From Bacteroidales bacterium (lineage in GTDB: Bacteria > Bacteroidota > Bacteroidia > Bacteroidales > FEN-979), in contig JAUXWT010000090.1 of NCBI GenBank assembly GCA_030681475.1, forward strand, positions 1 through 64,000: a DNA stretch of 64,000 nucleotides, written 5' to 3'. Positions 9,315-32,051 of the stretch are shown here, in pieces. A program made the position numbers and the translations under genes. Numbering within the stretch: the first letter of the stretch is position 1; every line of letters starts with the position of its first letter. The notes under the pieces were generated by a model that made no database searches, was not told where the DNA came from, and worked only from the letters and a program-made list of their open reading frames with translations.

Positions 9315-9315
9315 C

Positions 9316-9422
9316 TGTTTTTCAATTCAAAATGCAAAGTCAAATTTCAAATGTCAAAAATATGGAAGCAGCTAACTTAGCACAGAAATTTGAAATTTGA
9401 CTTTGCACTTTGCACATTGCAT
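9316..9422. repeat. nuo intergenic palindrome, copy 2
   Basis: Inverted repeat between nuoG and nuoH. The left arm carries AATGCAAAGTCAAATTTCAAA and the right arm AATTTGACTTTGCACTTTGC. The centre of about 40 bp differs from the other copies. Same family as 7619-7715. Confidence 0.85.
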
Positions 9423-9428
9423 TATATT

Positions 9429-10397: not shown

Positions 10398-10401
10398 TTA
10401 T

Positions 10402-11778
10402 TTACCAATACTTTATACCTGTTCCCGAATCCGGAATCAACAATTCCGTATCGGATTGAATAGCTCCGTGATCTATATTCTTTACCACCTCAGGGAATTT
10501 CACATGATATACGAATTCCCTGCGGAAATGGCGGATGGCGCTTGCTACCGGCCAGGCTGCTGCATCGCCGAGCGGGCAGATCGTGTTGCCTTCAATGTTT
10601 TTGGCCACACGCACCAGAAGATCAATATCCGACATTTTACCCTCTCCGTGCTCGATCCGGTGCAAGACCTTCTCCATCCACCCGGTCCCTTCACGGCAGG
10701 GCGAACACTGCCCGCACGATTCGTGACGGTAAAAACGGGTGAGGTTCAATGTGTTGCGCACGATGCAGGCATCCTCATCCAGGACGATAAATCCGCCTGA
10801 ACCCAGCATGGTGCCGCTTTCAAAATCTCCTTCGGCGAGTGATTCAAATGTCATCAACCGCTGCTCACCCTGGGCGGTATTCAATATCAGATCAGCCGGA
10901 AGTATGGGTACCGAAGATCCGCCCGGGATCACGGCTTTTAACAATTTGTCATTGGCAATGCCTCCGCAATACCTGGGAGCGTAAATAAAGTCCTCCACCG
11001 GCAGTCCCATTTCAATTTCATAAACACCCGGGTTGTTAATATGTCCACAGGCCGAGATAAGCTTGGTGCCGGTACTTCTTCCACGTCCGATCTTCGCATA
11101 GGCCTCCCCTCCCATGTTGATGATGGGACCGACTGCCGCAAGGGTCTCCACATTATTCACCACCGTTGGGCAGCCGTAAAGCCCCTTGAATGCCGGGAAA
11201 GGCGGTTTTATGCGGGGATTGCCCCGTTTGCCTTCCAGTGATTCGAGCAAGGCGGTCTCCTCCCCGCAGATATAGGCGCCGGCGCCGGGATGGACGTATA
11301 TTTTCAGAGAGAACCCTGTTCCCAAAATCCGCTCTCCCAAAAAACCATGTTGATATGCCTCTTTGATGGCTTTTTCAAGTACACCGACAAGGTATTTAAA
11401 TTCCCCGCGGATGTAGATGTAACATGTTTCAACGCCAAGGGCATAGCTGGAAATGATCAGCCCTTCGAGGAGCAGATGCGGCAAATGGTGCATCAGGTAA
11501 CGGTCTTTGAAGGTTCCCGGTTCGCTTTCATCGGCGTTGCATACAAGATACCTTGGTTTATCTGATTTACGGTCGAGGAAACTCCATTTGAGTCCGGTCG
11601 GGAATCCGGCGCCTCCCCTTCCCCGCAGCCCCGACTTGTGCACTTCGAGACTCACTTCAGTTGCTGTCATCTCCCGCAGCGCTTTTTCCACGGCAATATA
11701 CCCGCCGTGGGCACGGTAAGTATCAAAACCCCGGATTCCCGGAATGTCAACGTTGGCTAACAGAACTTTTCCACCCAT
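10402..11778 (-). CDS. nuoF: NADH-quinone oxidoreductase subunit F
   Basis: Flavoprotein subunit of 458 residues that binds NADH, FMN and the N3 4Fe4S cluster. Visible motifs are GLRGRGGAGFPTGLKW (NADH/FMN loop), GAGAYICGEETALLESLEG (FMN site) and ESCGQCSPCREG with a later ICPLGD Cys (N3 ligands). It overlaps the end of nuoE by 22 bp, so translation of the two is likely coupled. It lies four bases before nuoG. Confidence 0.97.
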   Translation of the reverse strand: MGGKVLLANVDIPGIRGFDTYRAHGGYIAVEKALREMTATEVSLEVHKSGLRGRGGAGFPTGLKWSFLDRKSDKPRYLVCNADESEPGTFKDRYLMHHLPHLLLEGLIISSYALGVETCYIYIRGEFKYLVGVLEKAIKEAYQHGFLGERILGTGFSLKIYVHPGAGAYICGEETALLESLEGKRGNPRIKPPFPAFKGLYGCPTVVNNVETLAAVGPIINMGGEAYAKIGRGRSTGTKLISACGHINNPGVYEIEMGLPVEDFIYAPRYCGGIANDKLLKAVIPGGSSVPILPADLILNTAQGEQRLMTFESLAEGDFESGTMLGSGGFIVLDEDACIVRNTLNLTRFYRHESCGQCSPCREGTGWMEKVLHRIEHGEGKMSDIDLLVRVAKNIEGNTICPLGDAAAWPVASAIRHFRREFVYHVKFPEVVKNIDHGAIQSDTELLIPDSGTGIKYW

Positions 11779-15794: not shown

Positions 15795-16627
15795 TTGATC
15801 ATGAAAAAAACAGATCTACCAGGTAATCGGATGAACAGGATGGTTTTTATAACCTCCATCTTATTCCTCTTTGTTATTGCTTTGAATTCTGCAACCTCGC
15901 AGACATACGACGGATATACACTTTACGCTCAGCAAGGCGGGACAAAGGCCTACCTCACTGATATGTCGGGTAATACGTATCACTCATGGACTTTCAGTTC
16001 GAGCGCCACCACCTGTTACTCATCTTACCTGTTACCTGGAGGGGTATTGCTGAGAAGTGTGAACAAGTCTGGGAATTCCTTCTCCGGCGGTCCCATTTCA
16101 GGCCAGGTGCAAAAGGTGGACTGGAGCGGGAACATTTTATGGAACTATGTTTATTCGACTACGAATTATTGCAGTCATCATGACATTCATCCGATGCCGA
16201 ATGGCAATGTACTTCTGATCGCCTATGAGCGAAAAACCGCGGCGGAGGTGACACAGGCGGGTGGCGCCTCAAGTATCGAAATGTGGCCCGATAAAATCGT
16301 TGAAATCCAGCCGTCAGGAACATCCGGCGGAACCGTAGTGTGGGAATGGCGTGTGTGGGACCATCTTATTCAAAATTACAATCCGGCAAAAAGACCATAG
16401 TACAACTACCGCGCAGGCTGCCTCACATACCGGCGGCAATTCAGGGAAAGGCGGGGATTTTCTTTACCGGTGGGGAAATCCTGCAGCTTACCAGACAGCG
16501 GGAACAACCAATTTCAATGTTGTTCATGATGCGCATTGGATTGATTCGGGTAACTCTTCCGGGACTCTATTCAATTCGAATAATCAGCGGAGATCAATCA
16601 GGAACTATGAAGATCATCAGGGAGTGA
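15795..16627 (+). pseudogene. Decayed arylsulfotransferase-like T9SS protein
   Basis: A broken paralogue of the next gene. Residues 1-200 align closely with its N-terminus (signal peptide, then MSGNTYHSWTF, GQVQKVDWSGNI and VWEWRVWDHL). After NPAK about 155 bp are missing and the frame shifts. Homology resumes in another frame with STTTAQAASHTGG and RWGNPAAYQ up to HDAHWI. A second, larger deletion then removes the propeller end and the Ig-like domains. It ends in a third frame with a T9SS-type C-terminus (GLYSIRIISGDQSGTMKIIRE; stop at 16627). Total length is 833 bp against 1,917 bp in the intact copy. I infer recent duplication and decay by deletion. Confidence 0.85.
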
Positions 16628-16807
16628 CGCCTTGTTCGTGTATAATTGACAACAATATCTTAATTCATAAAAAAAAATACATTTTTTTGCAAATTTCATA
16701 ACAGTAAAAAGAAGATCATGAAGTAATATTGCAGCCTGATAACCGGCAGAACTAAAAACCGGATATAATATTCCAATAATTCACAAACATAAATACATTT
16801 TTAACGT

Positions 16808-18724
16808 ATGAAACGGACTTTCATTAACCTCTTTATCCTCATCGCCGCAATTTCGGCCGCGGTCCTTGAGGCACAGCCTTACGGTGATTACACTTTTTAC
16901 GCACCTAAAACCAGCAACAAGGCTTATCTGGTTGATATGAGCGGAAACACCTATCATTCCTGGACCTTTCCCTCCAGCGCCCCCACGGGATACTCTTCAT
17001 ATTTGTTACCTGGCGGAATAGTCCTGAGAAGTGTGGCCAAAAGTGGGAACTATTTTACAGGAGGCCCCATCTGCGGCCAGGTCCAGAAAGTGGACTGGAA
17101 CGGAAATATCATTTGGGATTATGTTTATTCCACTACAACGTATTGCACTCACCACGACATTTGTGCCATGCCAAACGGAAATGTATTATTAATTGCGTAT
17201 GAGTCAAAAACACCGGCTGAGGTGACCCAGGCCGGGTGTTCACAAAGCATTACCATGTGGCCTGATAAAATAGTTGAGATCCAGCCTGTTGGCGCCACCG
17301 GAGGCATTGTGGTATGGGAGTGGCGTGTGTGGGATCATCTGTGCCAAAACTACAACCCGGCAAAAAGTAATTACGTTACTTCCATTGTTCAGCATCCCGA
17401 ATTGCTTAACATCAATTACAAAACGCAGAAAGACTGGATGCATGTGAACGGTCTGGACTACAATGCAACGCTGGACCAGATCACCTTTTCCTCCCATAAC
17501 ATGAATGAAATTTATGTAATCGATCACAGCACGACCACTGCCGAGGCAGCCGGGCATACAGGTGGAAACTCTGGAAAAGGCGGAGATTTTCTTTACAGGT
17601 GGGGCAATCCGGCCGCATACCAGGCTTCGGGCGCTACCATACTCAATGTGGTTCACAACGCCCATTGGATACCGCAGGATTGTCCGAGGGCCAACTACCT
17701 CTCGGCATTCAACAACAAAGGAGGCGCCGGTAATAAAACGTGTATTGACCTCATCAATCCGCCATACGACGGATACAATTATTCCTTAACTCCGGGAACG
17801 GCCTATACTCCGCCAACCTATAACTGGAGGCACACATATAGCGGCACACCGTCTCAGAACGAGGGCCATGCACAGCAATTGCCAAACGGGAACACCCTGA
17901 TCACCATGTCCATGTCAGGCTATATGTATGAAATTGATTCAAATCAAACTGTTGTATGGTCCAAACAGATCAGCGGAATTGTTACCAATGCCCGGCGCTA
18001 CACCGCCTGTTATGTCAATGGCGCTCCGACCGTTACCGCCACCGCCACCCCGACGGAGATATGTCCCGGTGGCACATCGCTGTTGAATGCCATACCAGGC
18101 GGAACTGCAAATTACATTTACGCCTGGACTTCAATCCCGGCCGGATTTACATCTGCCATACCAAATCCGCTCGTCACTCCTTCCGTTTCGACGATGTACA
18201 TTGCCACCATCTCTGCTGATGGTTGCCAGGCTTCCGATTCAGTGTTTGTGACCGTCAATGCTTTACCGGCCACCCCGGTCATCACCATCACCGGGGATTC
18301 GCTGATGTCGAGTTCACCCACCGGCAATCAATGGTACCTGAACGGGAGTCTCATCACCGGGGCTACCGGCCAGTACTTTGAGATCACGCTGCCCGGTTCT
18401 TACCAGGTACAGGTCACCGGCGCTACAGGCTGTGTGTCACAGATGTCGGCGCCGTTTGTTTTCGTCGGAATTGACGAAACCATCGACAGCAGTACAATCC
18501 GGGTATACCCGAATCCCACAACCGGTATCATCAGGATAAGCGCCACCGGATTGGAGAACAGATCGTTCGAAGTCAGGGTCTGCAGCTCACTTGGAAAGGT
18601 CGTACAGTCATCGAAAGATAACCATACTCTTGACCTTTCGGGGTGGTCTGGCGGGATCTATTATCTAACCATACTCACCGACAAATCTGTATCTGTCACA
18701 AAAAAAATAATTCTTATTAAATAA
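16808..18724 (+). CDS. Arylsulfotransferase (ASST)-like secreted protein with T9SS sorting domain
   Basis: A 638-residue exported protein. The signal peptide covers residues 1-22 (cleavage near LEAQP). Residues 23-400 form a beta-propeller-type region resembling the aryl-sulfate sulfotransferase family, with His-bearing motifs THHDICAMPNGN, VHNAHWIP and EGHAQQLPNGN. It continues with Ig/PKD-like segments (about 405-560) and a C-terminal T9SS type A sorting domain starting VYPNPTTGIIRIS and ending SVTKKIILIK. ASST enzymes move sulfate between phenols in other bacteria; whether this divergent member is active is unknown. The T9SS tail predicts export to the cell surface or medium. It is followed 15 bp later by another T9SS gene. 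Confidence 0.75.
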   Translation: MKRTFINLFILIAAISAAVLEAQPYGDYTFYAPKTSNKAYLVDMSGNTYHSWTFPSSAPTGYSSYLLPGGIVLRSVAKSGNYFTGGPICGQVQKVDWNGNIIWDYVYSTTTYCTHHDICAMPNGNVLLIAYESKTPAEVTQAGCSQSITMWPDKIVEIQPVGATGGIVVWEWRVWDHLCQNYNPAKSNYVTSIVQHPELLNINYKTQKDWMHVNGLDYNATLDQITFSSHNMNEIYVIDHSTTTAEAAGHTGGNSGKGGDFLYRWGNPAAYQASGATILNVVHNAHWIPQDCPRANYLSAFNNKGGAGNKTCIDLINPPYDGYNYSLTPGTAYTPPTYNWRHTYSGTPSQNEGHAQQLPNGNTLITMSMSGYMYEIDSNQTVVWSKQISGIVTNARRYTACYVNGAPTVTATATPTEICPGGTSLLNAIPGGTANYIYAWTSIPAGFTSAIPNPLVTPSVSTMYIATISADGCQASDSVFVTVNALPATPVITITGDSLMSSSPTGNQWYLNGSLITGATGQYFEITLPGSYQVQVTGATGCVSQMSAPFVFVGIDETIDSSTIRVYPNPTTGIIRISATGLENRSFEVRVCSSLGKVVQSSKDNHTLDLSGWSGGIYYLTILTDKSVSVTKKIILIK

Positions 18725-18739: not shown

Positions 18740-19951
18740 ATGAAACCTATTATCAGTTACCTGTTCCTTTTGCTGATCGTGTTGTCCGGATCCAATGTCC
18801 GGGCACAGCAGTTCACGAATTACACCTCAGCCAACGGTCTTCCTTCAGATAATGTGAACGGAGTAGCCGTTGATGCATCCAACCACAAATGGTTTGCCAC
18901 CCAGGCCGGAGTCGCCAGGTTCGACAACACCACCTGGACCACTTATACTACTGCCAATGGATTGATTGACAATTACATTAACTGCATTGCCGTGGATGTT
19001 AACAACAATGTCTGGGCCGGCACGGATTACGGCGCAAGCAAATTTGACGGAACCACGTGGACCTCCTATAATGCTGCCAACGGCCTGGCCAATAACACGG
19101 TGAATTATATGGCCGGTGATCCTGACGGAAGCGTTTGGATCGGAACAGGGAATGGACTCTCGCGTTTTAATGGTACAACATGGACGAACTATTCAACAGC
19201 CAACGGGTTACCAAGCAACCTGATCAGCTACATTGCGGTCGATCAGACCGGGAACAAATGGTTTGGCACTTTTCTTGGCGGATTGTCGAAATTCAACGGT
19301 ACTTCATTTACTAACTTTACCGTGGCCGACAGTCTTCCCGACAACAACATCATTTCGATCGGCATAGGCGCCAACAATACCAAATGGATTGGCACCTACT
19401 TCGGAGTAGCGGTTTTTGACAACCTCGATCAGTGGATCGGAACCTACAGGGTTGCCGACGGGCTCCTCAACGACTTTGTACAGGACATTGCCATGGATTC
19501 GAAAGGCACGATGTGGTTCGGACTTTATGATATCTACCTTCAGGAGGGCGGGATCACCAGTAAGAACGCGAATGTTTGGAAGTCTTTTACTGTTGCCAGC
19601 GGATTGGTCAACAACGTGGTTAAAAGAATAGCGGTGGATAAGTCAGACATTGTTTGGATCACAACCGGTGGCGGCGTCTCAAAGCTGTTTGATCCAACCT
19701 CGGGGTTCGGCAATCTGTCCGGAATGACCCTTTCGGCATTTCCCAACCCGGCAACGACAGAGATCCATCTTGACGGATTGACCACCTTCGGTAACCTTTG
19801 GATCATGACCTTGACCGGAAAAACTGTTGTTTCGCAAGCACTGTCAAAAGGATCCAACACCATCAGCCTGAATGGCCTTTCATCCGGAAATTATATCATG
19901 AAGTACACGACAGGCATGATAAGCTACACCGGAAAACTGGTTATCCGGTGA
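18740..19951 (+). CDS. Regulator-propeller repeat protein with T9SS sorting domain
   Basis: A secreted protein of 403 residues with a signal peptide (about 1-22, cleavage near VRAQQ). About seven regulator-propeller repeats of about 43 residues follow, each with a TANGL segment and a VWIGT or KWFGT strand, like the sensor blades of hybrid two-component systems but without any kinase part. The C-terminus is a T9SS sorting domain (FPNPATTEIHLDG ... YTGKLVIR). It is probably an extracellular propeller of unknown ligand. Its stop overlaps the GTG start of the CotH gene, so the two are likely co-translated. Confidence 0.8.
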   Translation: MKPIISYLFLLLIVLSGSNVRAQQFTNYTSANGLPSDNVNGVAVDASNHKWFATQAGVARFDNTTWTTYTTANGLIDNYINCIAVDVNNNVWAGTDYGASKFDGTTWTSYNAANGLANNTVNYMAGDPDGSVWIGTGNGLSRFNGTTWTNYSTANGLPSNLISYIAVDQTGNKWFGTFLGGLSKFNGTSFTNFTVADSLPDNNIISIGIGANNTKWIGTYFGVAVFDNLDQWIGTYRVADGLLNDFVQDIAMDSKGTMWFGLYDIYLQEGGITSKNANVWKSFTVASGLVNNVVKRIAVDKSDIVWITTGGGVSKLFDPTSGFGNLSGMTLSAFPNPATTEIHLDGLTTFGNLWIMTLTGKTVVSQALSKGSNTISLNGLSSGNYIMKYTTGMISYTGKLVIR

Positions 19952-22206
19952 GGCTGACATTCATATTTATTCTCTTCCTGACCATCCTGTTCCCGGTGAT
20001 GGCTCAGGAAGATTTTTATGCTCCCGGGAAAATTCATGAGATTCATATCCGGTTTAAGGAACATAACTGGCGACATTTACTCGACAGCCTGTTTACCACC
20101 TACGGAGACAATGGAAGACTTATTGGCGATGTGACCATTGACGCGCATCTATGCCCCAATGCAGCGATCCGCTACAAAGGTTTCAGTTCATATAATGCCA
20201 ACGAGATCAAGAATCCCTTCAATATTGATCTCGACTACATCCGCAAGAATCAGAACCACCAGGGTTATGTCAAGATCAAGTTGAGCAACGTGATCCATGA
20301 TCCTTCATTCGTCAGGGAGGTACTGTCGTATGAGATCGCCCGGCAGTACATTCCTTCATCCGGCGCAAACTTTGCCAACCTCTACGTGAATGATACCCTG
20401 ATCGGGCTTTACACCAATGTGGAGGCGGTGGATGAAAACTTCACGGACAAGCGCTATGGGTCGCATACGAACAGTTTTTTCAAGGGTGAACCGGTGAAAT
20501 TACAGTATCCTTTCGGGCAGAATGCCAACCTTGCGCTGACGCATGGAGCCGATTCAAGCGGCTACATGCCCTACTACAATATGCAATCGGATGCCGGGTG
20601 GAACGACCTGTTCAACTTTATCATTCGTCTTGACCAGGGCGCTGACAGCGCCGAAAGCATCCTCAACATTGACCGTGCCCTCTGGATGCATGCATTCAAT
20701 GAAGTGACGCTTAATCTCGACAGTTATATCGGTTATTCACAAAATTACTATCTCTACCGTGATGACCATGGAAGGTTCAACCCCATTCTTTGGGATATGA
20801 ACATGTCATTCGGCAGTTTCAGGGAGTCAGACGGATCAACAAACTTCCAGGGGGCTACCATTCCCAAGATCAAAAGGCTGGATCCGCTTGCGCTGATGAC
20901 CTTTGCTGTTTCCCCCCGGCCCTTAATGACAAAGCTTTTCAGCAACGACACACTTCGCAAGATATACTTCGCCCACATGCGGACGATCGTCAACGAGAAT
21001 TTCCGGAACGGTTGGTATTTCACGCGGGCAACGGAACTTCAATCCCAGATTGATGCTGCCGTGTTAAACGACACGAACCGTTTCTATTCTTATGCTGATT
21101 TTCATTCGAATCTCACCGTTACCGTAGGCGGAACCGGCTCCATGAAGGAGTATCCGGGACTCAAAGACCTCATGGAAGCCCGCATGGCCTACCTTGATAC
21201 GCTTAACGGGTTCTACGGCCAGCCGGTCATTACCGGCCTCACTCATGTACCGGCAGTACCTGTAAAGAACCAGCCATGCTGGATAACGGCACGCATCCAG
21301 GGAGCCACCATGGCCTACCTGGGCTATCGGTTTTCTACCGACGGGATCTTTTCCCGCATATCCATGGCCGATGACGGTCTCCACCATGACAGTCTGGCCG
21401 GCGATGGTATTTATGGCGCCATGCTGACGGTTAAGGGCCATACCATTCAGTATTATATTTATGCAGGAAACGACAAAGCCGCCGTTTTATCGCCGGAACG
21501 TGCCGAGTATGAATTTTATACGATTCAGCCTGCGATTCTCCCCGGCGATGTTGTCCTGAATGAATTCCATGCGGGAACCACACAGGAGAACTGGCTCGAA
21601 TTACTCAACACGACCACCGAACCCATCAACATGGCTGGCATGCATCTTTCTGATGATCCTGCCAATCCGGTAAAATGGGTATTGCCAGATACGATGATCA
21701 TGGCAAAAAAATATATGGTGTTCTATCCGGACGGCGAGCCCTCCGGAAGAAAGGCGGCATCTTCCATCGCAATTTCCAATGCCGGGGGCAGGCTCCTGTT
21801 CTTCAATGCAACCGGCATCCTTCTTGATTCGGTCACTTATGGCATTCAGGTTACAGGAAAGAGTACCGGCCGGTACCCGAATGGTTACGGCGTCATGACC
21901 TATATGTTGCCATCTATGGGCCGTTATAACAGATTCGGGACAACTCCTGGATCGGGCTTTCTGCTCTATCCCAACCCGGCAAGAGGACAAACCAACATCG
22001 AGTTCACGCAAAATTCAAGTCCGGCTATGGTGACTGTTTATAATTCCATGGGGCAACAGGCGCTGGAAAATACATCTCTTTATGGCACAGGCCTGATCGG
22101 GCCGGTATTGCATCCGGTTGATATTTCAACCCTTAAAAGCGGATTGTATATGGTCAGGGTCAGTTGCAACGGAGAGACTACCATTAAAAAACTAATGATT
22201 TATTGA
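19948..22206 (+). CDS. CotH kinase-like protein with lamin-tail and T9SS sorting domain
   Basis: A secreted protein of about 752 residues. I chose the GTG at 19948 (GTGA overlap with the preceding stop) because it begins directly with a signal peptide (RLTFIFILFLTILFPVMAQ). The frame is open further upstream but runs inside the previous gene. Residues 25-420 resemble the CotH family, atypical protein kinases first known from Bacillus spore coats: RYKGFSS, NPFNIDLDYI, GLYTNVEAVDE and PILWDMNMSFG. A lamin-tail-like domain follows (VLNEFHAGTTQENWLELLN), then a T9SS type A tail (LLYPNPARGQTNIEF ... KKLMIY). CotH next to VTC and DUF4956 genes is a recurring arrangement as I recall it; the substrate here is unknown. 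Confidence 0.85.
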   Translation: MRLTFIFILFLTILFPVMAQEDFYAPGKIHEIHIRFKEHNWRHLLDSLFTTYGDNGRLIGDVTIDAHLCPNAAIRYKGFSSYNANEIKNPFNIDLDYIRKNQNHQGYVKIKLSNVIHDPSFVREVLSYEIARQYIPSSGANFANLYVNDTLIGLYTNVEAVDENFTDKRYGSHTNSFFKGEPVKLQYPFGQNANLALTHGADSSGYMPYYNMQSDAGWNDLFNFIIRLDQGADSAESILNIDRALWMHAFNEVTLNLDSYIGYSQNYYLYRDDHGRFNPILWDMNMSFGSFRESDGSTNFQGATIPKIKRLDPLALMTFAVSPRPLMTKLFSNDTLRKIYFAHMRTIVNENFRNGWYFTRATELQSQIDAAVLNDTNRFYSYADFHSNLTVTVGGTGSMKEYPGLKDLMEARMAYLDTLNGFYGQPVITGLTHVPAVPVKNQPCWITARIQGATMAYLGYRFSTDGIFSRISMADDGLHHDSLAGDGIYGAMLTVKGHTIQYYIYAGNDKAAVLSPERAEYEFYTIQPAILPGDVVLNEFHAGTTQENWLELLNTTTEPINMAGMHLSDDPANPVKWVLPDTMIMAKKYMVFYPDGEPSGRKAASSIAISNAGGRLLFFNATGILLDSVTYGIQVTGKSTGRYPNGYGVMTYMLPSMGRYNRFGTTPGSGFLLYPNPARGQTNIEFTQNSSPAMVTVYNSMGQQALENTSLYGTGLIGPVLHPVDISTLKSGLYMVRVSCNGETTIKKLMIY

Positions 22207-22216
22207 AGCGGTAACA

Positions 22217-22400
22217 ATATTATGAAAGAAAATCCTCAATTTTATGAGACTGTATAAATGGAATGTCAAACGATCAGATTTTACTCTGTGAACCTCTGTG
22301 ACTACTCTGTGAACCTCTGTGTAACAATAATTTATCACACAGAGAACCACGGAGAAGACACGGAGGGCCACAGAGATCATATAAAACAAACTTATTAATG
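22217..22400. repeat. CTCTGTG element, near-identical copy of 6788-6977
   Basis: Fills the gap between the CotH gene and the lipoprotein gene. The core (22283-22377) and the unique flanks match the copy inside the nuo operon at about 6788-6977 almost base for base (AATGTCAAACGATCAGATTTT, CATATAAAACAAA, TTATTAATG). The element ends at the first ATG of the next frame, which argues that the real start there is downstream. Confidence 0.9.
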
Positions 22401-22439
22401 AAAAATCGCAATTGTAACACCAACGATAATTTGAAACTT

Positions 22440-22856
22440 ATGTCAGTTATTGAAAAAATCCGGATATATCGTCTTATAATATTCCTGCTCGTCATCCCCC
22501 TGATGATGATCTCCTGCGAAAAAGAGCCTGGCCCCGGTGGCAAATCGACCATCTATGGGAAAGTTCTTGTAAAAGATTACAACGCGACTTTCACCGTCCT
22601 TCAGGAGACCTATTACGGACCGGAGATATGGGTTTACCTTATTTATGGCGACGACAGGGATTATGGCGACCGTATTCAGACCGGTTTTGACGGAACGTGG
22701 GAGTTCAAATATCTCCGGCCGGGAACATATAAGGTGTATGCCTTTTCAAAGGACTCCACACTGCAAACCGTTGCTCCTGTGCCAGTCATCAGGGAGGTGG
22801 TCGTTCCAGACAAAAAACAAGATATTGAAGTGCCTGATCTGATAATCTTTAATTAA
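22440..22856 (+). CDS. Small lipoprotein of unknown function
   Basis: A protein of about 138 residues from the ATG at 22440. An upstream ATG at 22398 is formed by the repeat and is less likely. The N-terminus is a lipoprotein signal: basic KIR, hydrophobic IIFLLVIPLMM, then ISC with the lipobox Cys. The mature part reads as a single beta-sandwich with GTWEFKYLRPGTYKVYAF, the pattern of a carboxypeptidase-regulatory-like (CarboxypepD_reg/SdrD B-like) domain. It sits in the CotH-VTC locus, seven bases before the next gene, and is probably anchored in the outer membrane. Confidence 0.7.
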   Translation: MSVIEKIRIYRLIIFLLVIPLMMISCEKEPGPGGKSTIYGKVLVKDYNATFTVLQETYYGPEIWVYLIYGDDRDYGDRIQTGFDGTWEFKYLRPGTYKVYAFSKDSTLQTVAPVPVIREVVVPDKKQDIEVPDLIIFN

Positions 22857-22862
22857 ACATAT

Positions 22863-23429
22863 ATGAACCGTACAATTATCATCATCCTTTGCCTGCTGAT
22901 CGGAGTGACAGCGCCCTGCCAAAATAAAAAGGAGAGGCAGAAGAATAAAATCAAATCCATCACGGAATGGGAAACAACAACCATTGATGGCAAAACCAAC
23001 AACCATAAAACCACGTTTGAGGAATTTGATAAATCCGGCCGGAGTATTTTCAGGGAGGAATATGCTTCTGACGGAACCGTAAAATTCAAAGCAACGGTAG
23101 TGTACGACAGTTACGGAAACAAGACCGAAGAGACTGAGTTTGACCTGGCAAAGAATAAAAATTTCCGGTTGAAATCAAAATACAACGCCATGAAGGACAA
23201 AACCGAGGAGGTGGAATATGATGGCAAGGGGGATGTCAGGAAAAAGACATCCTTTACCTATTATGCCAACGGGAATAAAATGTCCGAAATTGAAACGGAC
23301 GGTGCGGGTAACTTTCTTAAAAAAGCAACCTACACCTATAACTCCCGGAACCTGAAAACAGAAAGAATGACCACCTCCAAATCCAGCCAGAAGGAGAAGT
23401 CGAAAAAATGGGAATATGTTTACTATTGA
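22863..23429 (+). CDS. Secreted protein with RHS/YD-like repeats
   Basis: A protein of 188 residues with an N-terminal export signal (IIIILCLLIGVTAPC; the Cys could be a lipid anchor). The rest is Lys/Glu-rich with repeating YDSYGNKTEE-, YDGKGDVRKK- and YNSRNLKTER-type strands, resembling the beta-hairpin repeats of RHS/YD or YwqK-like proteins. No catalytic motif is visible. It overlaps the VTC gene by 14 bp, which ties it to the same transcript. Function unknown; a structural or docking role in the envelope is a guess. Confidence 0.6.
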   Translation: MNRTIIIILCLLIGVTAPCQNKKERQKNKIKSITEWETTTIDGKTNNHKTTFEEFDKSGRSIFREEYASDGTVKFKATVVYDSYGNKTEETEFDLAKNKNFRLKSKYNAMKDKTEEVEYDGKGDVRKKTSFTYYANGNKMSEIETDGAGNFLKKATYTYNSRNLKTERMTTSKSSQKEKSKKWEYVYY

Positions 23430-24171
23430 TGAAATGATTACCCCTTTTGAATCCATTTCCCTCGATAAAATGGATGAGGTAAAACTGCTCGACCGGATAG
23501 ATTCCAAATTTATCTTCAAATCTGCGAAATTACCCGGCATCCTCGCGCAACTTTCTGCGGCTTATTTCATCCTGGAGGTCGGTGAGGTCAGGCTGCAGCG
23601 CTATGAAACGCTCTATTTCGACACCCCCGGCCATCAACTTTACCTTAAACATCATAACAAACGAAGGAACCGGTTTAAAATACGTTGCCGGAAATATGTC
23701 GATTCCGGTCTCTGTTATTTCGAGATCAAGTTCAAAAACAACAAAGGCCGGACTATCAAGGAGCGTAACAGGCAAAAGGGCTCCCAGGAGGAGATTACCG
23801 GCAAGCAGGAAAGGTTGCTGACTACAGCAACGAAAATGACTCCCGACATGCTGGTGCCGTCACTTTGGGTCAACTTTTCCCGAATCACACTTGTCAACCA
23901 TGGCCTTTCGGAAAGGGTGACCATCGACACCGGACTCAACTTCAGAAACGGCGCTGCCGGATGTTCATTTCCCGGTGTGGTCATTGCAGAGGTCAAGCGC
24001 AGCAGATCAGGGTCTTCCGGTATTTCTGAAATTTTACATAAGGAGCACATCCATGAAATCAAATTCAGCAAATACTGCATGGGGACCTTAAGCCTCAACA
24101 ACGGCATCAAATACAATAATTTCAAACAAAAACTCCTTTACCTTAATAAATTGAACCATGATAACAGCTAA
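23416..24171 (+). CDS. VTC-domain polyphosphate polymerase-like protein
   Basis: A protein of 251 residues whose whole length matches the VTC domain, the tunnel-shaped catalytic domain of the yeast polyphosphate polymerase Vtc4. The charged tunnel pattern is visible in order: LLDRIDSKFIF, YETLYFDTP, RRNRFKIRCRKY, CYFEIKFKNN with TIKERN, RVTIDTGLNF and VIAEVKRSRSG, supplying the expected Arg/Lys pairs and acidic metal ligands. It has no membrane segment and no signal, so it is likely cytoplasmic, possibly docking to the DUF4956 protein encoded next. It overlaps both neighbours. An in-frame ATG at 23434 is an alternative start. Confidence 0.85.
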   Translation: MFTIDEMITPFESISLDKMDEVKLLDRIDSKFIFKSAKLPGILAQLSAAYFILEVGEVRLQRYETLYFDTPGHQLYLKHHNKRRNRFKIRCRKYVDSGLCYFEIKFKNNKGRTIKERNRQKGSQEEITGKQERLLTTATKMTPDMLVPSLWVNFSRITLVNHGLSERVTIDTGLNFRNGAAGCSFPGVVIAEVKRSRSGSSGISEILHKEHIHEIKFSKYCMGTLSLNNGIKYNNFKQKLLYLNKLNHDNS

Positions 24172-24898
24172 GCAAATCACGATGTTTTTCCTTCTTTTGC
24201 TCCTCGCCATGCCGGTTATGGTCTGTATTCCGCAACAGATCGATCCTGAATGGGCACAGTTTGACGAAACCAGCACAAAAGATGCTGACGAAACCGGTTC
24301 AAAAGACAAAAAAGAGAAAAAAAAGGCGGCAAAGATCCTGGAGATGAATGAGAAATTCCTGATCAGCCTGGGGATCAACCTGCTCAATGTGGCGTTGATC
24401 ATTATGTTTATTTATTACCCGAACTACAGGAAACTCGATTACATTTTTGCCTTCATCATGTTCAACCTGGTGATCTTCCTGCTGACCTTCGTGCTTAAAT
24501 ATGTCAAATTATCGGTGGGGGCGGCATTCGGACTTTTTGCCGTTTTTTCCATGCTGCGGTACCGTACCCAGGGTATTTCGATGAAGGATCTCACCTACCT
24601 TTTCATATTTATTGCCATGGGGGTTATCAGCTCCATTCAGCTTGAGTACTATGAACTCGCGGTTATCCATGGGATCATCCTCCTTGGTACCTTCGTCCTT
24701 GACGGGAACGTGATCTTCAAGGGCGAACGCATAAAAAGGATTGAATATGAAAATATCGAGATGATCAAACCGGCCAACCAGGCTGCCCTGATCGCGGATT
24801 TGCGAAGCAGGACCGGCCTTAACATTCACCGTGTCGTTGTCGGGAAGATCGATTTCCTGAAAGATTCAGCGGTGGTCAAGGTCTATTATTATGAATAA
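24158..24898 (+). CDS. DUF4956 membrane protein
   Basis: A protein of 246 residues. The N-terminal hydrophobic segment (residues 8-25) may be a signal or first helix. It is followed by an acidic/Lys-rich linker (about 35-62), then four closely spaced membrane helices (about 68-175) with the family-typical GAAFGLFAVFSMLRYRTQ motif, and a cytoplasmic-looking alpha/beta tail ending in VVKVYYYE. DUF4956 has no established function, but as I recall these proteins are commonly encoded beside VTC polymerases. Coding overlaps with VTC (14 bp) and with the next gene (8 bp) imply coupled translation. Confidence 0.85.
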   Translation: MITAKQITMFFLLLLLAMPVMVCIPQQIDPEWAQFDETSTKDADETGSKDKKEKKKAAKILEMNEKFLISLGINLLNVALIIMFIYYPNYRKLDYIFAFIMFNLVIFLLTFVLKYVKLSVGAAFGLFAVFSMLRYRTQGISMKDLTYLFIFIAMGVISSIQLEYYELAVIHGIILLGTFVLDGNVIFKGERIKRIEYENIEMIKPANQAALIADLRSRTGLNIHRVVVGKIDFLKDSAVVKVYYYE

Positions 24899-25565
24899 AC
24901 GAACGGGGTATCTGCTGTTGTTTATCCTGATCGTAACAGGCAATGTTCTCCATTCGCAGGTGAACGATGCGCAAATGTGGCTCAGCGTGAACCTGGAAAA
25001 GAAACTGACCACTGCCCTTTCGCTGGAATTTACAGAGGAGGTGCGAATGAACGAGAATATGACCGAAGCGGGCACGATATTCAGCGATCTTGGCATCAGT
25101 TACCGGTTTCTGAAGAAGTTCAAGGTGGGCGCCTCCTATCGCTTCACGCTCAGGAGAAGGCTGGATGACACCTACAAACGGATAAACAGTTGGTACGCTG
25201 AAGGGAGTTACAGGGAGAAGTTCAAGCCGGTCAGCCTTGTCCTGCGGTTGCGTTACCAGTTAAAGTATGCCGAGGCATTTACCTCTGAGAAGGCAGGTAC
25301 TCCGAACAACCATCTCCGGTCAAAGCTGACTGTAAAATATGACTTGAAGAAGAAATTTGTACCCTGTGTTTTCGCGGAGACTTTTTTCTCCACCGGGGCG
25401 CCGGTAGCTGCTTCGTTCGACCAGCTCAGACTTTGTGCAGGGATTGAATATTCCTTCAACAGAATGCATATGATTGATGTGAATTACCTCTTTATCCGTG
25501 AATACAACAACGTAAACCCCGAAACAGATTACGTGATTGGTATCGGGTATTATTTTACCTTTTAA
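24891..25565 (+). CDS. DUF2490-like outer-membrane beta-barrel protein
   Basis: A protein of 224 residues with a signal peptide (residues 1-22, cleavage near LHSQV). The remainder is alternating amphipathic strands: WLSVNLEKKLTTALSLEFTEE, YRFTLRR, LRLRYQLKYAE and a terminal GIGYYFTF whose final Phe suits BAM-dependent outer-membrane insertion. The pattern and length fit the DUF2490 family. It is the last gene of the CotH-VTC-DUF4956 locus and is coupled to DUF4956 by an 8-bp overlap. It may be the outer-membrane component of that locus, by inference. Confidence 0.75.
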   Translation: MNKRTGYLLLFILIVTGNVLHSQVNDAQMWLSVNLEKKLTTALSLEFTEEVRMNENMTEAGTIFSDLGISYRFLKKFKVGASYRFTLRRRLDDTYKRINSWYAEGSYREKFKPVSLVLRLRYQLKYAEAFTSEKAGTPNNHLRSKLTVKYDLKKKFVPCVFAETFFSTGAPVAASFDQLRLCAGIEYSFNRMHMIDVNYLFIREYNNVNPETDYVIGIGYYFTF

Positions 25566-26079: not shown

Positions 26080-26382
26080 ATGTCAACAGTAGGATTGCAA
26101 TTACGGGAATTAAGGGAAAAGGCTGGTTTTTCGTTACGGAAAGCTGCCGTTGCCATTGACGTTGACGTGGCTATATTAAGCAAAATGGAACGTGGCGAAC
26201 GGAAATTCTCAAAAGCGTTGGTTTTAAAATTAGCGGAACTTTACGAAGCAAATTCCGATAAACTGGTGATTGATTATTTAAGTGAAAAAGTACTTTACGA
26301 ATTGGAAGACGAAGAATTTGGACTTGAAGCATTAAAAGCTGCTGAAAAACAGTTGGAGTACAAGAAACAAAACACCCAATGA
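26080..26382 (+). CDS. XRE-family helix-turn-helix regulator
   Basis: A protein of 100 residues. Residues 5-60 form a classic helix-turn-helix of the Cro/XRE type (LRELREKAGFSLRKAAVAI, then DVAILSKMERGER), and the C-terminus is acidic and helical. It is the first gene of the island and overlaps the next start as ATGA. It most likely controls timing of the restriction-modification genes, as controller proteins do elsewhere. The codon and base bias is AT-rich like the rest of the island. Confidence 0.85.
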   Translation: MSTVGLQLRELREKAGFSLRKAAVAIDVDVAILSKMERGERKFSKALVLKLAELYEANSDKLVIDYLSEKVLYELEDEEFGLEALKAAEKQLEYKKQNTQ

Positions 26383-26891
26383 ATAATTTGATAAAACCGG
26401 AATATGAAACATTGATCTTTCAATTCAGAGGCTTCAAAGTGATGATAGATTCTGATTTGGCAGTTTTATACGGGGTTCCGACAAAAGCCTTGAAGCAACA
26501 GGTTAAACGCAATTGTGAACGGTTTCCTGAAGATTTCATGTTTGAACTCACTCAAATTGAGAAAGATGAACTGGTCACAAATTGTGACCGGTTAGCTATA
26601 TTGAAACATTCTTCGGTAAACCCTCTGGCATTTACAGAGCAAGGTGTTTCTATGCTTTCATCCGTGCTGCGTTCCGAAAAAGCGATTAAGATCAATATCG
26701 AAATTATGCGAGCATTTGCACGATACAGGGCATTGTTAAGGGAAAACGAGGAGTTGAAAAAAGAAATTCTGAAACTCGATGCCAAACTCAATCACGCCTT
26801 CAAATTCTTACTCGACAAACTTGATGCCTTGCACCAAAAAGCAATCGAACCCCGTAAACCAATTGGTTTTAAAATTGATAAAAACAAATAA
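26379..26891 (+). CDS. ORF6N domain protein
   Basis: A protein of 170 residues. The first about 95 residues match the ORF6N DNA-binding domain found in phage antirepressor-like proteins (VMIDSDLAVLYGVPTKALKQQ, then RFPEDFMFELT and TEQGVSMLSSVLRSEKAI). The rest is a predicted coiled coil (ENEELKKEILKLDAKL). ORF6N proteins are usually phage- or mobile-element-derived. Its place between the regulator and the methyltransferase of a type III system suggests it was carried with the island. Biochemical role unknown. Confidence 0.85.
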   Translation: MNNLIKPEYETLIFQFRGFKVMIDSDLAVLYGVPTKALKQQVKRNCERFPEDFMFELTQIEKDELVTNCDRLAILKHSSVNPLAFTEQGVSMLSSVLRSEKAIKINIEIMRAFARYRALLRENEELKKEILKLDAKLNHAFKFLLDKLDALHQKAIEPRKPIGFKIDKNK

Positions 26892-26894
26892 GCC

Positions 26895-28577
26895 ATGCCA
26901 ACCCTCCAATTCAAAGGAAAAAACATTATATGGAACCACCATTTGGCTGTTCCGTTCCATACATTGGACGAGGTGCCCGAACTGCACTACAAACCCGAAA
27001 AAGCCAATGGGAATATGATTATTGAGGGCGACAATCTTATTGCCCTTAAAGCACTTTTACCTCAATTTGCAGGAAAGGTTAAGTGCATATATATTGATCC
27101 ACCATACAATACAGGCAAAGAGGAATGGGTTTATAGTGACAAAGTTAATAGTCCATTAATTTCAGAATGGTTAGGGAAAGTTGTAGGAGCAGACGATCTT
27201 AATAAACATGAAAAATGGAGTTGCATGTTTGTCCCACGTATTAAGATTTTAAGAGAATTACTTCAAGATGATGGAATTATAATAATATCATGTGATGATA
27301 ATGAACATCATCATCTAAAGACAATAATGGATGAGATTTATGGTAGTATAAATTTTATTGGCTCCATAATCTGGAAAAATGCAACTGACAACAATCCCAC
27401 AAATATCGCAATAGAGCATGAGTATTTACTAGTATTTGCACGTGATAAAACCAAGTTAGTAAGTGAATGGAAATCTACTATTTCTGATGCAAAGGAAGAA
27501 TTGATAAAAATTGGCAAGGAGCTTACAAATAAATATAAAGAACAAAATGATCTTCAGACTAAATATTCAGAATGGTTTAGAGAAAATAAAAGATTCCTTG
27601 GTAAATTGGATCGTTACAAATATATTGACTTGAATGGTGTTTATACTGGAAGCCAAAGTGTTCACAACCCTGGAAAAGAAGGTTACAGGTACGATATCAT
27701 TCATCCTATCACAATGAAGCCCTGCAAAGAGCCTTTAATGGGATATAGATTTCCAGAAATTACTATGACCGAATTAATAACTGATGGTAAAATTCTATTT
27801 GGTGAGGATGAAGATAAAATTATCGAATTAAAAGTTTATGCCAGTGAGTATGAGGATAAGCTTTCAAGCTATATCGAACTTGATGGTCGTTTAGGTGCAT
27901 ATGATCTTAGAAATCTATTTGATTCTGTTCCTTTTAAAAATCCCAAACCAGTACTATTACTTACTCATATCTTGCCATTTGTCATCCATAAAAATGATAT
28001 AATCCTTGATTCTTTTGCTGGCTCTGGCACTACAATGCACGCCATAATGAAACTCAATAAGGAAGATAGTGGCAAACGTCAATGTATTATGATTCAGATG
28101 CCTGAAAACTCAGAGGCCGAACCTGAAAAAAACATTTGTAAAGACATAACAAGAGAAAGAGTTAAAAGAGCCATTGATAAATACGGTTATGATTCAGGTT
28201 TTAAATATTATCGCCTTGGGATTCCGCTTGATGCAGAAACTCTGCTCGAAGGGCAATTGCCAACCTACAAGCAATTCGCAAAATATGTTTACTACCTGTG
28301 CACAGGCGAAAACCTGGAAGCCGAGGATAAAATTGACGAAGCCGATTTTTACGTGGGTGAACATGGCAAGCAAGCCATTTATCTGGTTTACAAACAGAAC
28401 TATGATACGCTTACTCGTCTTGCATTAAACTTAACACTTGCCGAGAAAATAAAAGAACAACAACCGGGTAAAAAACGGATTGTTTATGCTCCATCATGCT
28501 TTTTAGATGAAGATTATTTAACCGACAACCAGATTGAATACGTGGGAATTCCGTATAATTTATTTCAAAGGAGGTAA
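26895..28577 (+). CDS. mod: Type III restriction-modification methyltransferase (Mod)
   Basis: A protein of 560 residues. The adenine-N6 methyltransferase catalytic motif DPPYNTG lies at residues 68-74 and the S-adenosylmethionine motif DSFAGSGTT at 372-380. This order (motif IV before motif I) is that of the beta class, which includes Mod subunits. The stretch between them (about 165-340) is the likely target-recognition region and is especially AT-rich. Mod gives specificity to the complex and can methylate alone. It starts four bases after the ORF6N gene; the partner Res is two genes downstream. Confidence 0.93.
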   Translation: MPTLQFKGKNIIWNHHLAVPFHTLDEVPELHYKPEKANGNMIIEGDNLIALKALLPQFAGKVKCIYIDPPYNTGKEEWVYSDKVNSPLISEWLGKVVGADDLNKHEKWSCMFVPRIKILRELLQDDGIIIISCDDNEHHHLKTIMDEIYGSINFIGSIIWKNATDNNPTNIAIEHEYLLVFARDKTKLVSEWKSTISDAKEELIKIGKELTNKYKEQNDLQTKYSEWFRENKRFLGKLDRYKYIDLNGVYTGSQSVHNPGKEGYRYDIIHPITMKPCKEPLMGYRFPEITMTELITDGKILFGEDEDKIIELKVYASEYEDKLSSYIELDGRLGAYDLRNLFDSVPFKNPKPVLLLTHILPFVIHKNDIILDSFAGSGTTMHAIMKLNKEDSGKRQCIMIQMPENSEAEPEKNICKDITRERVKRAIDKYGYDSGFKYYRLGIPLDAETLLEGQLPTYKQFAKYVYYLCTGENLEAEDKIDEADFYVGEHGKQAIYLVYKQNYDTLTRLALNLTLAEKIKEQQPGKKRIVYAPSCFLDEDYLTDNQIEYVGIPYNLFQRR

Positions 28578-29426
28578 ATGATGAAAAGAGAATTAGTTAA
28601 ATCATTGACCGATACTTTTCAGGATCATTCTAATACGACTGATAACGGGATTGAATTTTGGTTTGCCCGTGACATTCAGCATTTATTGGGTTACAGCGAA
28701 TGGCGGAATTTCACCAATGTAATTACAAAAGCAAAAACTTCTTGCGAAGTTAGTGGTAACAATATATCCGACCATTTTGTTGACATCAACAAGATGGTCA
28801 ATATCGGGTCGGGCGCTCAAAAACCGGTAGAAGACATTATGCTTACCCGGTATGCCTGTTATCTGATTGCTCAGAATGGCGACCCAAAGAAAGAACCTGT
28901 TGCCTTTGCCCAAAACTACTTTGCGGTTCAAACACGAAAATACGAAATAATCGAACAACGTATAAACGACTGGGAGCGATTACAGGCTCGGGAGAAACTA
29001 AGTCTGTCGGAAAAGGAATTGTCATCAATTATATACGAGCAAACCGGAAGCGACAAGAATTTTGCTATAATCAGAAGTAAAGGCGATGCCGCTTTATTTG
29101 GGGGCAAAACCACCCAACAAATGAAAGACAGATTGGGTGTGCCGAAAGAACGTGCATTAGCAGATTTTCTTCCGACAATTACCATTAAAGCCAAGGACTT
29201 CGCAACTGAAATTACCATTTTTAATGCAAAGGATAAAGTATTGACAACAGAAGGCGAAATATCTGCCGAACATATAAAAAACAACAGAGGCGTTAGAAAG
29301 CTTTTACTTGAGCGCGGTATTAAGCCGGAAGAATTGCCGGCAGAAGAAGACATTAAGAAGTTGGAACGCAGGGTGAAAAGTGAAGAAAAACAAATTGGAA
29401 AGAAACCTGACAAACTCTCTGAATAA
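28578..29426 (+). CDS. dinD: DinD-like DNA-damage-inducible protein
   Basis: A protein of 282 residues matching DinD over its length. The N-terminal BRO-like segment contains IEFWFARDIQHLLGYSEWRNF and the central region KPVEDIMLTRYACYLIAQNGDP, with a charged C-terminal helix. In E. coli DinD is SOS-induced and affects RecA activity. Here it lies between mod and res, with 0-6 bp spacing, so it is probably expressed with them. A role in tempering self-damage by the nuclease is a hypothesis only. Confidence 0.88.
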   Translation: MMKRELVKSLTDTFQDHSNTTDNGIEFWFARDIQHLLGYSEWRNFTNVITKAKTSCEVSGNNISDHFVDINKMVNIGSGAQKPVEDIMLTRYACYLIAQNGDPKKEPVAFAQNYFAVQTRKYEIIEQRINDWERLQAREKLSLSEKELSSIIYEQTGSDKNFAIIRSKGDAALFGGKTTQQMKDRLGVPKERALADFLPTITIKAKDFATEITIFNAKDKVLTTEGEISAEHIKNNRGVRKLLLERGIKPEELPAEEDIKKLERRVKSEEKQIGKKPDKLSE

Positions 29427-29432
29427 ATTATT

Positions 29433-32051
29433 ATGTACTTAAAAAAATATCAGATAAAGGTTGTTAATGCACTCAAGCAGTTTTTGCAAACTGCCCGTGA
29501 CACTAAAACGTCATTTGACATAGCGAAACAGGCTTTGCCTGAAAATATGCGTCATACGCTCAATTGGGTACAAACAACTTTTCAGACCAGCAGTCTTGAT
29601 TACAAAGACCGTTGCACAAATGGGCTTGGAAGCAGCTACCCCCGAATGATTATAAAAGTCCCCACAGGTGGCGGAAAGACCTTGCTTGCAGTGGAAGCAA
29701 TTCGGGAGTATCAGAATCTTTTTGCTCAAAAACGCACAGGACTTGTAGTTTGGATTGTTCCAAGCGAAACCATTTACAGTCAGACAGTCCAAAAAATCAG
29801 AGATAAAGGAAATCCGTTACGCCAATTATTAGATCAATGCAGTGGGAACCGCACCATTATTTTGGAAAAGGGGCAACGTTTAACAACGAATGATATTGAA
29901 GAGAATCTGGTTGTTTTATTTATAATGATTCAATCCATAAGCCGCACCAATGGGAAAGAAGCATTAAAAGTTTTTCAGGACAGTGGCGGTTATGACAGCT
30001 TTTTCCCTGCCGATAATCGGTATGATTTACACGAACAGTTATTAAAGCAAGTTCCAAACCTTGATTTTATATCTCCGCTTGGCACTGAGCAACCCCTTAT
30101 TATGACAAGCCTCGGAAATGCAATACGGGTTGCCAGGCCTTTCATAATTATAGACGAAATACATAAAGTGTTTTCGGACAATGCACGAAAAACCATTGAC
30201 AGCCTGAATCCTGAATTTGTTCTTGGCCTCACCGCAACGCCTAAGCCAGAAATGAATGTTTTGGTTACCATTACAGGGCTTGAACTGAAAGATGAGGAGA
30301 TGGTAAAACTTGACATGCACATACTCCCACCCATAAGCAAACAGGAAAACGACTGGAAAGCAATGGTTAAGGAAATTAAAGAGCATCGTGAAAAGTTAGA
30401 GGGAAAAGCAAAACAGTATCAAAAAGACAATGGGGTTTATATCCGCCCGGCAGCGTTATTGCAAGTTGAAGCTACAGGAAAAGACCAGAGAGGAAAAGGC
30501 AGGGTTCACAGTCTTGATGTTAAAGAATATTTGGTAAGCCTTGAAGTAAGCCCAGATGAAATTGCAATAAAAACAAGTTCTCAAAATGATATTGAAGATG
30601 TAAATTTATTCTCGCAGGATTGCCCGGTACGTTTTATCATAACCAAAGAAGCGTTACGTGAAGGTTGGGATTTTTCGTTTGCTTATATTTTGGGAATTAT
30701 TCCAAATGTTAATTCAAACACAGGAGTAACACAGTTAGTTGGTCGAATTTTAAGACAACCTTTTGCAAGAAAATCGGGAGTTAAAGAATTAGATGAAAGC
30801 TATGTCTATTACACAAAAGGCGATACACGCGAAATATTAGACAGGGTTTCAACCGGCTTTAAAAACGAAGGGCTTGAAGACTTAGTAACAAAACTAAAAT
30901 TCCGTGATAACGAAGCGATAAATGCGACTAAAACTGTAAAGATTAAGAAAGAATTCAGCGAGAAATTTCAAAATTCATTTTACCTGCCTGTTTGGTTAAT
31001 GACTGATAATAAAGGCTTTAAACGAAGATTTAATTATGAAAGTGATATAAAACCCAAAGTTGATTTCTCAAAACTTGAATTATCCGAAGAATATATTACA
31101 AAACTCGAAAATTCTTTAAGTACTGAAACAAAAGAAAGAAAGGCATTTGCAATTACACTTGATGATTCAAGTAAAGCATCATTTATTGAAGAAAAGACCC
31201 AAAGCAATGGCAAAGCGGAAATTAATATTGATTATTTAACGCGTAGGCTGAATGAATTAATAGAAAATCCATTTTTAGCAAGAATTATTGGAACAAGGTA
31301 TTTACAACAAGTTGAAACAAGAGTTGGAAAAGAAAAACTAAAAGAACATTATAGCTTCATTGTTTCACAACTTTGCAAAAAATTTCAGGAGGAAAAAACA
31401 AAACAGGAAGAAGAAATATTTTTACAGGAACTCAAAGCCAAAAATCTTGTACTTGCTGTTTCAGACGAAGAGACCATCGGCTTTAAAGTGCCTAAAGAAG
31501 ACATTATTACTGTTAGTCCTATTCCAAGTACATACAAGTATTATCTTTTCGATGATGTTGAAGTAACTGCAATGAATACGCTTGAAAGAAAAGTTGGCGA
31601 CTTACTTGACAAACAGGAAAAAATTCTTTGGTGGTTCAGAAATAAAGTGAACAGAAAATGGTATTCAATTCAAGGTTGGCAACAACATAAAATACGACCT
31701 GACTTTATTGCTGCAAAAAGAACAGAAGATAATCATTTGGAAATGGTTTACATCATAGAAAGTAAAGGGGAACATTTGCTCGGTAACTTAGATACTACCT
31801 ACAAGAAAAAAGTATTGGATATAATGACAGGGCAAAAACAGCTCAAGAATATTAAAGCATATCAGACACAGATTCCATTTGAAGAATATGTGATAAATGA
31901 CAAAGTTGAATGCTCCCTGATTGAACAAGGGAAAGAAGAAGAAAAATTAAAAGAACTCTTGAAATGTTCTGCTGACATTTATGGTTTCCAATCAGATTTT
32001 CGCCGGAAGGGAAAAGTCCGCATCTTTCGGCATCGGGATCCTGAACACTAG
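29433..32051 (+). CDS. res: Type III restriction endonuclease (Res) with altered C-terminus
   Basis: A protein of 872 residues. The superfamily 2 helicase motor has Walker A PTGGGKT (77-83), a DEIH box (241-244), TATP (267-270) and a later VGRILRQPFARK motif VI. A PD-ExK-type nuclease core lies near 755-780 (RPDFIAAKR, then YIIESKG). With Mod it would form an ATP-dependent restriction complex. The last about 17 residues (RRKGKVRIFRHRDPEH) and the stop codon come from the out-of-frame sequence of a histidine-kinase remnant, so the native C-terminus has been replaced. All recognised motifs remain intact, so activity is plausible. Confidence 0.92.
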   Translation: MYLKKYQIKVVNALKQFLQTARDTKTSFDIAKQALPENMRHTLNWVQTTFQTSSLDYKDRCTNGLGSSYPRMIIKVPTGGGKTLLAVEAIREYQNLFAQKRTGLVVWIVPSETIYSQTVQKIRDKGNPLRQLLDQCSGNRTIILEKGQRLTTNDIEENLVVLFIMIQSISRTNGKEALKVFQDSGGYDSFFPADNRYDLHEQLLKQVPNLDFISPLGTEQPLIMTSLGNAIRVARPFIIIDEIHKVFSDNARKTIDSLNPEFVLGLTATPKPEMNVLVTITGLELKDEEMVKLDMHILPPISKQENDWKAMVKEIKEHREKLEGKAKQYQKDNGVYIRPAALLQVEATGKDQRGKGRVHSLDVKEYLVSLEVSPDEIAIKTSSQNDIEDVNLFSQDCPVRFIITKEALREGWDFSFAYILGIIPNVNSNTGVTQLVGRILRQPFARKSGVKELDESYVYYTKGDTREILDRVSTGFKNEGLEDLVTKLKFRDNEAINATKTVKIKKEFSEKFQNSFYLPVWLMTDNKGFKRRFNYESDIKPKVDFSKLELSEEYITKLENSLSTETKERKAFAITLDDSSKASFIEEKTQSNGKAEINIDYLTRRLNELIENPFLARIIGTRYLQQVETRVGKEKLKEHYSFIVSQLCKKFQEEKTKQEEEIFLQELKAKNLVLAVSDEETIGFKVPKEDIITVSPIPSTYKYYLFDDVEVTAMNTLERKVGDLLDKQEKILWWFRNKVNRKWYSIQGWQQHKIRPDFIAAKRTEDNHLEMVYIIESKGEHLLGNLDTTYKKKVLDIMTGQKQLKNIKAYQTQIPFEEYVINDKVECSLIEQGKEEEKLKELLKCSADIYGFQSDFRRKGKVRIFRHRDPEH

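Follow-up and report, generated by a model that had tools for sequence, protein, structure and literature searches.

A six-gene locus in a 64,000-nucleotide stretch of DNA from a Bacteroidales bacterium (contig JAUXWT010000090.1; the whole stretch is hereafter called the window) is real, widely conserved and partly known: its core, comprising a CotH-type kinase, a VTC polyphosphate-polymerase-like enzyme and a DUF4956 membrane protein, has been published as a triad, and its Bacteroidota form with an outer-membrane part is new. Adjacency and co-occurrence across genomes support the view that CotH, VTC and DUF4956 function together. With slightly less than even confidence, we read the locus as a module for polyphosphate (polyP) synthesis and export that carries a kinase arm at the cell surface. 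The original prediction, drawn from the letters of the window and a list of its open reading frames (ORFs), had named the six genes, and our check of the ORFs placed all of them on the plus strand at matching coordinates:

19948-22206, plus strand: CotH kinase with signal peptide, lamin-tail domain and type IX secretion system (T9SS) tail; GTG start; PF08757, 4.5e-41, 141.9 bits.
22398-22856, plus strand: small, conserved lipoprotein, beta-sandwich-like; lipobox; no confident family.
22863-23429, plus strand: secreted YD-repeat-like protein; signal peptide and YD-like repeats.
23416-24171, plus strand: VTC polyphosphate-polymerase-like enzyme of the triphosphate tunnel metalloenzyme (TTM) fold, cytoplasmic, 251 aa; PF09359, 7.9e-28.
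24158-24898, plus strand: DUF4956 membrane protein; PF16316, 3.4e-48.
24891-25565, plus strand: DUF2490 outer-membrane beta-barrel; PF10677, 1e-23, 84.4 bits.

Pfam confirmed the names CotH, VTC, DUF4956 and DUF2490. The lipoprotein and YD labels were borne out by the lipobox and the repeats, but neither protein has a confident family, with no Pfam family above cut-off for the YD-like one. The overlaps that had been described were likewise present, amounting to 14 nt between YD and VTC, 14 nt between VTC and DUF4956 and 8 nt between DUF4956 and DUF2490; a gap of 191 nt separates the CotH and lipoprotein genes.

In the 4.24-Mb genome, VTC, CotH, DUF4956 and DUF2490 each occurred as one copy, every one at this locus; since the gene order also recurs elsewhere, in 19 other loci, chance grouping is excluded. 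The idea of a system had been made to depend on a neighborhood conserved beyond close relatives, and conservation does reach that far. In a sample of 148 genomes spread over Bacteroidota (VTC in 29, DUF4956 in 45, CotH in 60), 32 of 33 VTC matches adjoin DUF4956, the exception being a partial match. VTC also flanks DUF4956 in 99 of the 103 loci of a further set, which joins 80 named genome contigs picked by DUF4956 similarity to 23 loci of the window's genus, family and order. The loci that keep the exact order CotH-lipoprotein-YD-VTC-DUF4956-DUF2490 include metagenome-assembled genomes (MAGs) labeled Bacteroidetes and Flavobacteriales, and Chloroflexota loci hold VTC, DUF4956 and CotH. Cultured carriers include Runella zeae and Larkinella, and the Gram-positive Corynebacterium glutamicum has all three families in its genome. 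In the window's own genus the distribution is patchy, with the locus in 6 of 18 other genomes.

Across the phylum sample, CotH is encoded in 29 of 29 VTC genomes versus 31 of 119 others (p = 2e-14), or p = 4e-8 when counted by genus, which is the sole phylogeny correction. The association holds within the window's own family, where VTC is patchy and CotH accompanies it in 14/14 genomes, compared with 8/23 of those lacking VTC (p = 5e-5). We used a domain-only CotH profile, as one built from full-length proteins strayed to T9SS tails and to further surface proteins. A tree was built from 90 CotH domains, and in it the window CotH falls into a supported clade of 23, of which 21 members are VTC-linked; the two unlinked ones come from genomes (G109 and G023) with a VTC locus elsewhere. 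The VTC-linked label was clustered on the tree (14 changes versus 29 when shuffled), and well-supported branches force at least 6 label changes, indicating that different CotH lineages joined VTC and DUF4956 more than once.

The VTC enzyme itself looks competent and is predicted to produce polyP from ATP. It matched PF09359 with 98 bits (cut-off 23), and a profile built from 20 VTC homologs matched yeast Vtc4 at 5.9e-18. In the profile alignment, R90, R92, K105, R156, E192 and K219 correspond to the basic tunnel and acidic metal-site residues R264, R266, K281, R361, E426 and K458 of Vtc4, with K281, R361 and K458 in the usual numbering. All six are invariant across the 20 diverse homologs, which share 19 invariant columns overall, so the tunnel residues on which the original prediction hinged are all present by sequence alignment. 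The mutation set R264A/R266A/E426N has been used to inactivate Vtc4 (PMC9911596). The window enzyme belongs to a short subfamily with 18-25% identity to the longer Bacteroidota type, and Pfam finds the VTC domain alone in its 251 aa, with neither an SPX domain nor a Vtc1-type domain of three transmembrane (TM) helices. Plain polyP storage is an unlikely role for it, because PPK1 is encoded elsewhere in the genome and VTC would not be needed for that purpose.

Complementarily, we mapped the two aspartates required in Bacillus subtilis CotH, D228 and D251 (PMC7821199), onto D258 and D283 of the window protein by way of the sequence of the B. cereus structure, with its spacing of 23 residues. Both are invariant in a 15-protein CotH alignment and are kept in 54 (D258) and 56 (D283) of 59 aligned rows, the remainder being mostly gaps. 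A broken kinase, as the WDxN motif of the window CotH might suggest, was rejected: D251 aligns with the first D of the motif, which is kept, and in VTC-linked CotH proteins the other position is most often N. With the tunnel residues of VTC and the aspartates of CotH retained, both enzymes look catalytically competent, the kinase activity of CotH being putative.

The outer-membrane part appears to be exchangeable. Of 39 other DUF4956 loci, 24 have a HlyD-type adaptor, 8 have DUF2490 and none has both, as expected if the two do the same job. The DUF2490 model (predicted local distance difference test, pLDDT, 94) is a small beta-barrel with 11 strands assigned by DSSP, and the folds that it matches at comparable size are those of NanC and KdgM (template modeling (TM) scores 0.43-0.57), porins for acidic oligosaccharides. 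Lumen-facing strand positions are up to 46% lysine or arginine, on several strands, and lumen-side arginines are conserved (R52 in 100%, R180 in 98% and R143 in 94%). Judging by the model, such a basic lumen would suit passage of a polyanion, without being proof of one. DUF4956, in turn, was modeled (pLDDT 86.5) with 4-5 TM helices and a C-terminal ferredoxin/ACT-like domain, and its relative in Streptococcus intermedius has been described in similar terms (PMC12345266). In its R134-x-R136-T motif, R134 does not vary among 73 sequences, and R136 and T137 hardly do; judged from charge, the motif would lie at the cytoplasmic face. Searching the DUF4956 sequence against solved structures returned no significant match.

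These features are consistent with the following scheme, in which we infer the polyP product, its translocation by DUF4956, its passage through DUF2490, and the kinase activity and target of CotH. Working on the inner side of the cytoplasmic membrane, VTC would draw on ATP to polymerize phosphate. DUF4956 would dock or bind VTC and pass the chain through the membrane, with the RxRT motif at the cytoplasmic mouth and the ACT-like domain as the likely regulatory element. The chain would then cross the outer envelope via DUF2490, whose barrel is lined with arginines, a role that would fall to a HlyD-type adaptor in other Bacteroidota. T9SS-exported CotH would act outside the cell, with surface proteins or the exported polymer as its target. 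Yeast VTC couples cytoplasmic polyP synthesis to membrane translocation (PMC9911596), and a polymerase attached to a membrane protein, with an exchangeable, basic-lumen part for crossing the envelope, is likewise best read as export-coupled synthesis.

Several observations weigh against this scheme. Deleting the VTC gene in S. intermedius caused no reported change in aggregation, unlike deletion of DUF4956 or CotH (PMC12345266), which speaks against a simple polyP-centered view in that organism. Some DUF4956 loci have no VTC, and the DUF2490 family is common in Bacteroidota outside this locus. TM-scores of the DUF2490 model against NanC and KdgM are only ~0.5. A fold search with DUF4956 matched no solved structure to its membrane part and gave only weak ACT-domain matches. 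The MgtC kinship of DUF4956 published for S. intermedius is a weak lead that we keep: two DUF4956 relatives match MgtC (PF02308) at 8-9e-4, below cut-off, the window protein does not match it, and a DUF4956-MgtC profile comparison was not significant. Finally, the control genome of Bacteroides ihuae has VTC, DUF4956 and DUF2490 without CotH, so CotH is not obligatory.

Two further genes for surface proteins precede CotH:

16808-18724, plus strand: arylsulfotransferase (ASST)-like protein with T9SS sorting tail; PF05935, 2.3e-19; PF18962, 8.7e-14.
18740-19951, plus strand: Reg_prop beta-propeller protein with T9SS tail; PF07494, 1e-20; PF18962, 1e-8.

As the GTG start of CotH at 19948 overlaps the stop of the Reg_prop gene by 4 nt, the transcript probably starts further upstream, at 18740 or 16808. 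The likely start of the unit thus lies upstream of the 19948 given in the original prediction. Relatives carry the Reg_prop gene at the same position, and the lipoprotein gene also keeps its place in many related loci; the lipoprotein start is conserved ('SCkKe.G.GG.stI.GkV'), with a lipobox in 38 of 59 homologs as extracted, and the YD-like protein has 45 homologs at loci of the same kind. An ASST-like gene is found in 18/40 CotH-linked loci versus 0/36 unlinked ones, a contrast inflated by related loci, and in one HlyD-type VTC locus (L045) the ASST-like protein is encoded directly after CotH. Against solved AssT, the window ASST-like protein matches only in its T9SS tail. ASST-family enzymes transfer sulfate without a nucleotide donor, and ATP is scarce outside the cell. 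CotH, acting outside, needs a donor, and it is speculative and quite unlikely that polyP exported by VTC and DUF4956 acts as phosphate donor or matrix polymer for surface CotH, permitting nucleotide-free phosphorylation outside the cell, possibly in parallel to the co-encoded ASST-like protein.

Further upstream, at 15795-16701, lies a shorter second ASST-like ORF (201 aa; PF05935, 1.2e-8) whose similarity seems to run on in other frames, and which resembles a broken copy of the gene starting at 16808. Directly downstream of the locus, positions 26080-32051 encode an HTH (helix-turn-helix) regulator, an ORF6N protein, an N6/N4 DNA methylase, a BRO-N protein and a ResIII helicase, which together form a type III restriction-modification-like cluster with the BRO gene between its two subunits.

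Related loci showed further arrangements. In L070-L073 (~8000-11000), a VTC-less DUF4956 precedes a HlyD-type adaptor and a protein of 412 aa, amounting to a VTC-free version of the exporter idea; the 412-aa protein appears TolC-like by eye, has no database family match, and no such identity is claimed. In L066 (7838-10868), from a genome with neither VTC nor CotH, the neighbors of DUF4956 are a calcineurin-like phosphoesterase and an unnamed secreted protein of 341 aa. VTC/DUF4956 loci L053 and L051 have an altered order with other proteins between the two genes, and one genome (G019) has three VTC loci. A locus labeled as a Bifidobacterium breve MAG (L131) combines DUF4956, DUF2490 and CotH in the Bacteroidota manner and probably stems from a mislabeled bin.

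The main rival account, favored by the Pel data, is that the locus helps to mature and regulate an adhesive matrix that the cell secretes. VTC and DUF4956 would sense phosphate or energy state and control a secreted polymer or a protein of the surface, which CotH, along with the ASST-like protein, would phosphorylate or sulfate, a role of the kind put forward for Gram-positive Pel; polyP would not be exported. In streptococci, clostridia and bifidobacteria, Pel clusters carry CotH, polyphosphate polymerase and DUF4956 as accessory genes (Whitfield et al. 2020, PMC7112168). In S. intermedius (SIR_1594 to SIR_1592), loss of DUF4956 led to more Pel and less aggregation and loss of CotH to less Pel (2025, PMC12345266). 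The ACT-like regulatory domain of DUF4956 and the enrichment of ASST-like genes at CotH-linked loci point the same way. On the other side, PelF (PF11997) was not found in the window's genome, to which that search was limited, nor was a polysaccharide synthase among the locus genes checked against Pfam families, and the HlyD/DUF2490 exchange argues that something crosses the envelope via the locus itself. We regard this account as rather unlikely, and prefer export-coupled polyP synthesis.

Alternatively, VTC might be a TTM enzyme with another product, such as a nucleotide or short triphosphate, and form a signaling unit with DUF4956 as membrane sensor. The TTM fold spans cyclases, triphosphatases and polymerases, and the window protein belongs to the divergent short subfamily, both of which count for this account; against it, the protein's matches are specifically to the VTC family and to yeast Vtc4, none of the tunnel residues is lost, and a soluble signal would need neither an outer-membrane barrel nor a HlyD adaptor, which makes it improbable. 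That CotH is a mere habitual neighbor serving other T9SS surface proteins, leaving VTC, DUF4956 and DUF2490 as the unit, would fit the finding that only 8 of the 39 DUF4956 loci sampled have CotH within 6.5 kb, and its absence from B. ihuae, but is more doubtful still given CotH in every VTC genome of the sample, its repeated independent linkage and VTC-linked clade, and the same linkage in Chloroflexota, Firmicutes and Actinobacteria.

Overall, the original prediction is partly supported: the evidence favors the triad as a functional set, and the statement that CotH recurs beside VTC and DUF4956 is matched by published work (PMC7112168, PMC12345266, PMC2879425). It overlooked the surface genes upstream, the exchange of DUF2490 for HlyD, that literature, and the fact that CotH does not stand beside every VTC pair. 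The triad has so far been noted solely as an unexplained accessory of Pel exopolysaccharide. Its frequent occurrence in Bacteroidota, in this genome with no Pel marker, together with a swappable outer part and tight genome-wide co-occurrence with CotH, points to a stand-alone system. Three-gene synteny has been stated not to be found outside Pel loci (PMC12345266), a claim contradicted by a window genome without PelF and by how common the arrangement is in Bacteroidota. The literature that we searched gave no description of the Bacteroidota form or of the DUF2490/HlyD exchange. Were the synthesis-and-export account true, donor and target of secreted CotH kinases would become directly testable.

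Among known systems, B. thetaiotaomicron BT3498-BT3499, from the same phylum, likewise pairs DUF4956 with DUF2490, and appears in an iron-response expression table without a function (PMC10434189). By profile match and barrel fold alike, DUF2490 belongs to the putative porin class TC 1.B.81; with KdgM and NanC it shares a small barrel of comparable size and a basic lumen, but no detected sequence similarity. The spore-coat kinases (B. subtilis CotH; 5jd9/5jda) have the same domain with D228 and D251 equivalents, whereas the window CotH is T9SS-secreted, bears a lamin-tail domain and involves no spore. The Gram-positive Pel cassette groups the same three families, and the same gene set was reported in Clostridium perfringens NELoc-2 (2010, PMC2879425). 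The window locus differs in having no Pel marker in its genome, a Gram-negative envelope and no adjoining pelDEADAFG, with lipoprotein and YD genes between CotH and VTC, and adds a DUF2490 barrel, the lipoprotein, the YD protein, and T9SS-sorted CotH and surface proteins. The eukaryotic VTC complex (Vtc4 with Vtc1/2/3) resembles the locus in its catalytic TTM domain with tunnel residues and its membrane-protein partner, although the window enzyme has neither SPX nor a fused Vtc1-type TM domain. If VTC and DUF4956 are indeed a polyP synthase-translocase, they would represent a bacterial counterpart of that complex, aimed at the cell surface instead of storage.

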